A stretch of 64,000 nt of DNA from Clostridiales bacterium (lineage in GTDB: Bacteria; Bacillota; Clostridia; UBA1381): positions 1 to 64,000 of the forward strand of contig JAQXTR010000027.1 of assembly GCA_029219585.1 (NCBI GenBank). Direction: 5' to 3'. Below, one piece after another: positions 614-806 of this stretch. The notes below the pieces were generated by a model. That model had not been told where the DNA came from, searched no databases, and was given only the letters and a program-made list of their open reading frames with translations. The position numbers were made by a program, and so were the translations under genes. Numbering within the stretch: the stretch's first letter is position 1; each line of letters begins with the position of its first letter.

Positions 614-806
614 TGCGACAAATCATCAATTTCACAATTCAATATTTCACCAAATCGGAGTGTATAATGTTGTAAAAAACGCTTATATGCTTTGTTTGTC
701 ATTATCTGGATTTGGTGAAAGTTATTGATTGATGATGTGTCGCAGCATTAAATCAGAGCAGGCGTTTTTATATGCGCCGACTGTTTTAATGCAGCGGCGC
801 ATTTTT
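614..806 (+). ncRNA. Candidate structured RNA or leader with long imperfect hairpin, ending in a terminator
   Basis: The sequence folds into stacked helices: 614-620 with 738-744 (7 bp), 622-630 with 728-736 (9 bp), 645-656 with 709-720 (12 bp) and 664-669 with 700-705 (6 bp). An asymmetric internal loop lies between the second and third helices. Apical-loop bases 674-682 (AAAAAACGC) can also pair with 762-769 (GCGTTTTT), giving a possible pseudoknot or alternative fold. An intrinsic terminator follows at 772-806 and a promoter ends just upstream. I cannot match it to a named RNA class. It could be a free small RNA, an attenuator for the gene at 837, or a palindromic mobile element that happens to be transcribed. 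Confidence 0.5.
772..806 (+). terminator. Intrinsic terminator between hairpin RNA and secreted-protein gene
   Basis: Stem ATGCGCCG at 772-779 with CGGCGCAT at 795-802, extended inward by CTG/CAG, followed by a T tract to 806. It lies upstream of the gene at 837, so it either ends the small RNA or acts as an attenuator. Confidence 0.8.

Follow-up and report, generated by a model that had tools for sequence, protein, structure and literature searches.

A hairpin RNA in front of mostly secreted-protein genes of Clostridia, outside Rfam, is probably a riboswitch-like transcription attenuator

Why would a bacterium place a promoter, a long hairpin, and an intrinsic terminator directly in front of a gene, such that transcription could end before the start codon is reached? 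In the window (the whole stretch of 64,000 nucleotides of Clostridiales DNA analyzed here), positions 580-837 hold, in this order, a sigma-70-type promoter, a 131-nt imperfect hairpin, a linker (27 nt between hairpin and terminator in this copy), an intrinsic terminator, a Shine-Dalgarno sequence, and an ATG, the latter 29 nt beyond the terminator. An earlier note, made from the sequence alone, had described a promoter, a long hairpin, and a terminator preceding a secreted-protein gene at 837; all of these elements were found, and the encoded protein indeed has a signal-peptide-like N-terminus and a stalk domain. The features of the locus are as follows.

580-608, + strand: promoter, with −35 TTTACA (580-585), 17-nt spacer, TG (600-601), and −10 TAATAT (603-608); a consensus match
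614-620, + strand: P1 5′ strand (UGCGACA), pairing with 738-744; 98% paired, with changes on both sides in alignments A3 and A4
622-656, + strand: P1 extension and P2 5′ strand, variable in sequence and conserved in pairing; longest arms 622-630 and 645-656
660-690, + strand: P3 apical stem-loop, with stem 660-667/683-690 and an A-rich loop; P3 covaries across the family
675-682, + strand: pseudoknot segment 2, AAAAACGC, complementary to 762-769; near-invariant in the family
690-697, + strand: pseudoknot segment 1, the 3′ bulge CUUUGUUU, 7 of 8 positions pairing with linker 751-758; swap tests 0/5,000 in two sets, and covariation
709-744, + strand: P2 and P1 3′ strands, as placed by folding
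745-769, + strand: linker GCAUUAAAUCAGAGCAGGCGUUUUU, antiterminator 5′ strand and 3′ partner of both pseudoknot segments
772-807, + strand: intrinsic terminator, with stem 772-779/795-802 and U-tract 802-807 (T(6)); stem 99-100% paired, with covariation in the family
822-828, + strand: Shine-Dalgarno sequence AAGGAGG, read from the sequence
837-1508, + strand: putative regulated gene for a 223-aa protein with a signal-peptide-like N-terminus and a Cu_amine_oxidN1 (stalk) domain (PF07833, 2e-12)

The hairpin (614-744) folds with −46.1 kcal/mol, compared with −24.0 ± 3.1 kcal/mol for dinucleotide shuffles (z −7.1; 0 of 200). Against shuffles, the z-score was −5.0 for the terminator (−19.9 kcal/mol; dinucleotide shuffles) and −6.5 for the entire segment 614-806. 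P1 begins at 614, ∼5 nt past the −10 box, and its 5′ strand (614-620) is probably at, or adjoins, the transcription start. A −10 box lies upstream of P1 in 180 of 185 examined copies of the RNA (see below), in 127 at a spacing of 5 nt; from this placement, P1 probably forms the 5′ end of the transcript. All promoters were called as consensus matches, and the family-wide logo reads TTTACA-N17-TGnTATAAT.

Several neighboring features were observed at the same locus. The divergent gene at 2-433 (− strand), desulfoferrodoxin-like by eye, has a perfect TTGACA-17-TATAAT promoter (499-527, − strand), which points away from the RNA. A SLOG-family gene (1505-1849, + strand; PF02481, PF10686) overlaps the stop codon of the stalk-domain gene by 4 nt; its N-terminus resembles that of genes found directly after the RNA at locus L100 and behind a tandem pair of copies at L079. 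A very strong 18-bp terminator hairpin (2424-2463, + strand) is situated between the third gene and a convergent hydrogenase-maturation-like gene.

In weak DNA matches from related genomes, the promoter, P1, the apical motif, the linker, and the terminator recurred, while the sequence of P2 was replaced. A covariance model (R1) was built after MAFFT alignment of 15 copies, and another (R2) from 86 copies; pseudoknot and antiterminator are absent from both. With R1, 56 of the 70 genomes from the bacterial family gave a match. R2 detected the RNA at the level of the order (78 of 95 genomes) and in a class-wide sample (96 of 391 genomes), there spanning 20 bacterial families; in a phylum-wide sample of 299 genomes, R2 matched the window's own genome only. 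These genome counts rest on filtered searches and incomplete genomes. Copy number reached up to 29 per genome. A pattern scan of named genomes yielded 43 matches, two of which (in an alphaproteobacterium and a member of the Cyclobacteriaceae) may have arisen by chance. A near-constant P1/linker variant (TGCCAAACA..TGTTTGGCGACAATCGG) was seen in several bacterial families (L242, L248, L251, L254, L257, and L260).

The window hairpin belongs to a structured RNA family outside Rfam, of which at least 185 copies were examined. The earlier note had matched it to no RNA class, and neither does Rfam 15: no gathering match was obtained in the whole window, and permissive scans, run on the window copy as well as on sets of 14, 19, and 16 related loci, gave nothing at gathering level at the RNA, with tRNA and tmRNA at these loci being detected. 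A known Rfam family was rejected on these grounds. Leader RNAs likewise left unnamed and derived from covariation are among the structured candidates reported from human microbiomes (PMC8040213) and from sets of 26 and 50 bacterial genomes (PMC8632094 and PMC11109978, respectively). The passages located in these three reports, like the text of the other papers searched, describe no such motif, and overlap with an unnamed HMP2 model (PMC8040213) is possible.

The earlier note had proposed compensatory changes across relatives as the mark of a genuine RNA structure, and the signal proved very strong, including at the long-range contact. In the MAFFT alignment of 15 copies, which is not fitted to any structure, 83.8% of cells were paired and 19 of 35 pairs had changed on both sides, a result reached by no shuffle. 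In the model-fitted alignments, which lean towards the model as the MAFFT alignment does not, 94.5% (A3) and 96.2% (A4) of cells were paired, with 35 of 37 pairs covarying in each; P2 was 95-97% paired and showed changes on both sides at each of its pairs. Covariation is thus strong in all hairpin helices and in the terminator.

Two long-range pairings connect the hairpin to the linker. For the one in the earlier note, between the apical loop and the bases before the terminator, AAAAACGC (675-682) can pair along its full length with GCGTTTTT (762-769). Beside it, a second pairing was found between the bulge (690-697) and the linker (751-758). It is at this 3′ bulge, beside the apical stem, that the proposed contact of the loop with the terminator shoulder covaries; the part formed by the A-run of the loop and the U-run of the linker is complementary, with both sides near-invariant across the family. 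Judging from the anatomy, the linker may pass the 8-bp apical stem via 4-5 nt, which would put one pseudoknot segment on either side of that stem.

The linker has yet another partner. The 3′ strand of a potential antiterminator is provided by the 5′ arm and loop of the terminator (775-778 and 785-792). In the window, this antiterminator (745-752/785-792 plus 761-764/775-778) amounts to −18.8 kcal/mol versus −19.9 kcal/mol for the terminator, and it excludes both the pseudoknot and the terminator. The family averages (−17.8 kcal/mol for the terminator and −15.7 kcal/mol for the antiterminator) are close as well. Both pairings of the linker were assessed by swapping partners between copies in two sets: one comprised 83 copies with pairwise identity below 75%, the other 64 copies from a second fetch, drawn almost entirely from other bacterial families. 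The bulge-linker duplex was more stable with its own than with swapped partners (−5.62 versus −4.49 in the 83 copies, and −6.86 versus −4.86 in the 64 copies), as was that of the linker with the 5′ arm of the terminator (−16.9 versus −12.2 and −15.7 versus −11.2, respectively); in each of the four cases, 0 of 5,000 swaps reached the observed value. Control pairings of the same segments (the bulge with either terminator arm, and the linker with the 3′ arm) showed no excess in either set. Bulge-linker cells changed on both sides numbered 28 versus 10.5 when shuffled, and 66 versus 24 when shuffled; a single pseudoknot pair is U-A in 29 copies and C-G in 28. The column counts for the antiterminator agreed with the swap tests in both sets. 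Because both pairings covary, the linker has two conserved partners, the bulge and the terminator arm, which cannot be used together. Helices, pseudoknot, and antiterminator are evolutionarily constrained, and the order of promoter, terminator, and gene is fixed.

Mutual exclusion of pseudoknot and antiterminator points to an attenuation switch, a reading the earlier note had called plausible and which gains support from the covariation of the helices and of the long-range contact. We consider the RNA probably to be a riboswitch-like attenuator that controls transcription in cis and belongs to a family outside Rfam. Transcription would begin at or beside P1, and the long hairpin would fold first, exposing its 3′ bulge at the side of the apical stem. 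In one state, the linker would pair back with this bulge, probably also with the apical A-loop, and form the pseudoknot; the 5′ arm of the terminator would then be free, the terminator would form, and transcription would stop before the gene. In the other, the linker and the 5′ arm of the terminator would form the antiterminator, allowing polymerase to read through into the gene. A signal for or against the pseudoknot (a metabolite, an ion, a protein, an RNA, or the rate of folding) could then set expression of a candidate regulon of secreted, surface, and small proteins. That the two pairings exclude each other in the cell, that control runs in this direction, and that a signal exists is what we infer. 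The intrinsic terminator between promoter and gene is conserved, and so is the antiterminator that excludes it; judged by sequence comparison, the RNA probably switches transcription of mostly secreted-protein genes on or off.

Other leader RNAs are built in a comparable way. In the fluoride (crcB) and ZTP (pfl) riboswitches, a linker pseudoknot and an antiterminator compete ahead of an intrinsic terminator, early in the mRNA. The likeness lies in this competition; in contrast to crcB and pfl, the present family is unmatched by those Rfam models, has a long variable hairpin at the 5′ end of the transcript, lacks an evident conserved ligand core, and precedes genes for secreted and small proteins rather than those of one pathway. 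Terminator and antiterminator are also mutually exclusive in the amino-acid attenuators (trp and ilvB leaders), which is the feature shared. However, no sense leader peptide of at least 40 aa was found in the window hairpin, for which reason a leader-peptide attenuator was rejected, and it is the pseudoknot that would control the linker. In type III toxin-antitoxin leaders (ToxI-ToxN), promoter, pseudoknotted RNA, terminator, and gene follow each other as they do here, but the RNA of the present family is one long hairpin, not short repeats, and its genes mostly encode secreted or other proteins. Such a system was rejected, as the downstream proteins do not fit it; no ToxN family was among the commonest 25 of 55 Pfam families in 109 downstream proteins.

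In 115 of 183 copies, an open reading frame of at least 60 aa with a Shine-Dalgarno sequence began on the same strand no more than 150 nt downstream, versus 16 of 172 looking outward on the other strand (Fisher 2e-27). By a looser definition, 149 of 185 copies had a downstream gene, with a median of 33 nt from terminator to start. At two loci (L047 and L073), the larger gap is explained by a palindrome (..GGCTCCCCTTGAGGGGAGC..) that separates the terminator from the open reading frame. Signal-peptide-like N-termini, as called by a simple and crude hydrophobicity rule, were found in 84 of 149 downstream proteins versus 60 of 291 other genes at the same loci. Among the 109 downstream proteins searched against Pfam, LRR_5 (29), the stalk domain (12), SLH (6), DUF6273 (5), and CHAP (4) were recorded; the set includes BspA-type LRR proteins as well as small proteins, for instance DUF6809. 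Where a genome has one to three copies, the genes following the RNA again mostly encode secreted, lipoprotein, or envelope proteins; single-copy genomes, examined for one core target gene, had mixed downstream genes, mostly for envelope proteins.

Two further groups of small proteins were observed after the RNA. A Cys-rich protein (IDITGIELIPGNxGKDCxGNGE..ECCCDECxY) follows it in several bacterial families (L195, L196, L202, L205, L207, L222, and L225); the sole member scanned, that of L195, had no Pfam match. A family of 77-86 aa (MxLKLELLxxxIxDxI...) follows it at L025 (2271-2501), L052 (1692-1949), L218 (2545-2781), and L219 (2549-2782) and also adjoins one RNA copy in the window's genome; the two members scanned had no Pfam match.

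Around homologs of the window protein, the RNA was just upstream at 7 of 30 loci fetched, the window's own counted, and is therefore gained or lost faster than the gene. This count, like the very mixed nature of the downstream genes, weighs against an attenuator, and the presence of the RNA beside some homologs of one gene and not others would suit a transcribed palindromic mobile element (MITE or REP-like), the main alternative in the earlier note. So would the many dispersed copies per genome and a small number of recent duplicates whose flanks differ (L074, 97% identity). However, within-genome identity among copies has a median of ∼60% in most genomes (0.83 in G076), promoter spacing is rigid, copies stand in the sense direction before genes with a strong bias in side and strand, and helices, pseudoknot, and antiterminator covary. 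The exact pattern had no match in viral contigs, nor had the window copy any by blastn in plasmid records, both searches reaching close relatives only; within that reach, phage or plasmid origin was rejected as well. The copies are ancient paralogs, each with its own promoter, and a mobile element, disfavored by covariation, copy divergence, and orientation, is highly improbable.

Tandem arrays of two to three copies, mostly spaced by 40-130 nt, occur at L228, L239, L205, L200, L109, L116, L096, L079, and L095, and each tandem copy inspected has its own promoter, which a pure leader would not need. Moreover, 21 of 185 copies (∼11%) have neither an open reading frame with a Shine-Dalgarno sequence within 150 nt nor a further copy close behind. 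Both observations count against the attenuator reading and would permit the terminated RNA a further role. Taken further, the terminated RNA of ∼190 nt could itself be the product, a multicopy small RNA whose copies act in trans on one another's or on other mRNAs via the shared bulge and linker, with read-through being secondary; the strong terminator and the similarity of bulge and linker sequences between copies agree with this, as do tandem copies complete with promoter and terminator. However, bulge and linker covary inside each copy, something that pairing in trans with an unvarying sequence would not require, the conserved antiterminator would serve no purpose in a small RNA, and most copies are ∼33 nt before a gene, without room for another promoter. 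We regard a small RNA as main product as unlikely.

What, then, might the attenuator sense? The consensus consists of conserved pseudoknot bases and an A-rich loop. As few unpaired nucleotides are conserved, most of them belonging to the pseudoknot, no clear ligand pocket is obvious. Put and EAR RNAs are examples of RNAs read by the transcription machinery itself, and the hairpin could similarly be read by that machinery, by an RNA-binding antiterminator, or by an envelope-stress factor instead of binding a small molecule. The position of the RNA at the 5′ end of the transcript, the scarcity of conserved loop bases, and a regulon of envelope and secreted proteins all fit a protein-bound leader. 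Yet the covarying antiterminator indicates a folding switch, with which a protein signal is compatible but which does not require one, and we consider such a leader quite unlikely compared with the riboswitch-like attenuator.

We tentatively suggest that a widespread riboswitch-like class with its own signal may coordinate secreted, surface, and small proteins at up to 29 places per genome in many gut Clostridia. If true, the RNA would govern a global cell-surface regulon for which no transcription factor is known. Few leader RNAs are known to occur at 20-29 copies per genome, and the present one, in approximately a quarter of the Clostridia-class genomes sampled, appears to have been missed by the Rfam catalog. 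It groups secreted proteins with many genes of unknown function into a single candidate regulon, and opens to test which signal gut Clostridia use in setting their surface.
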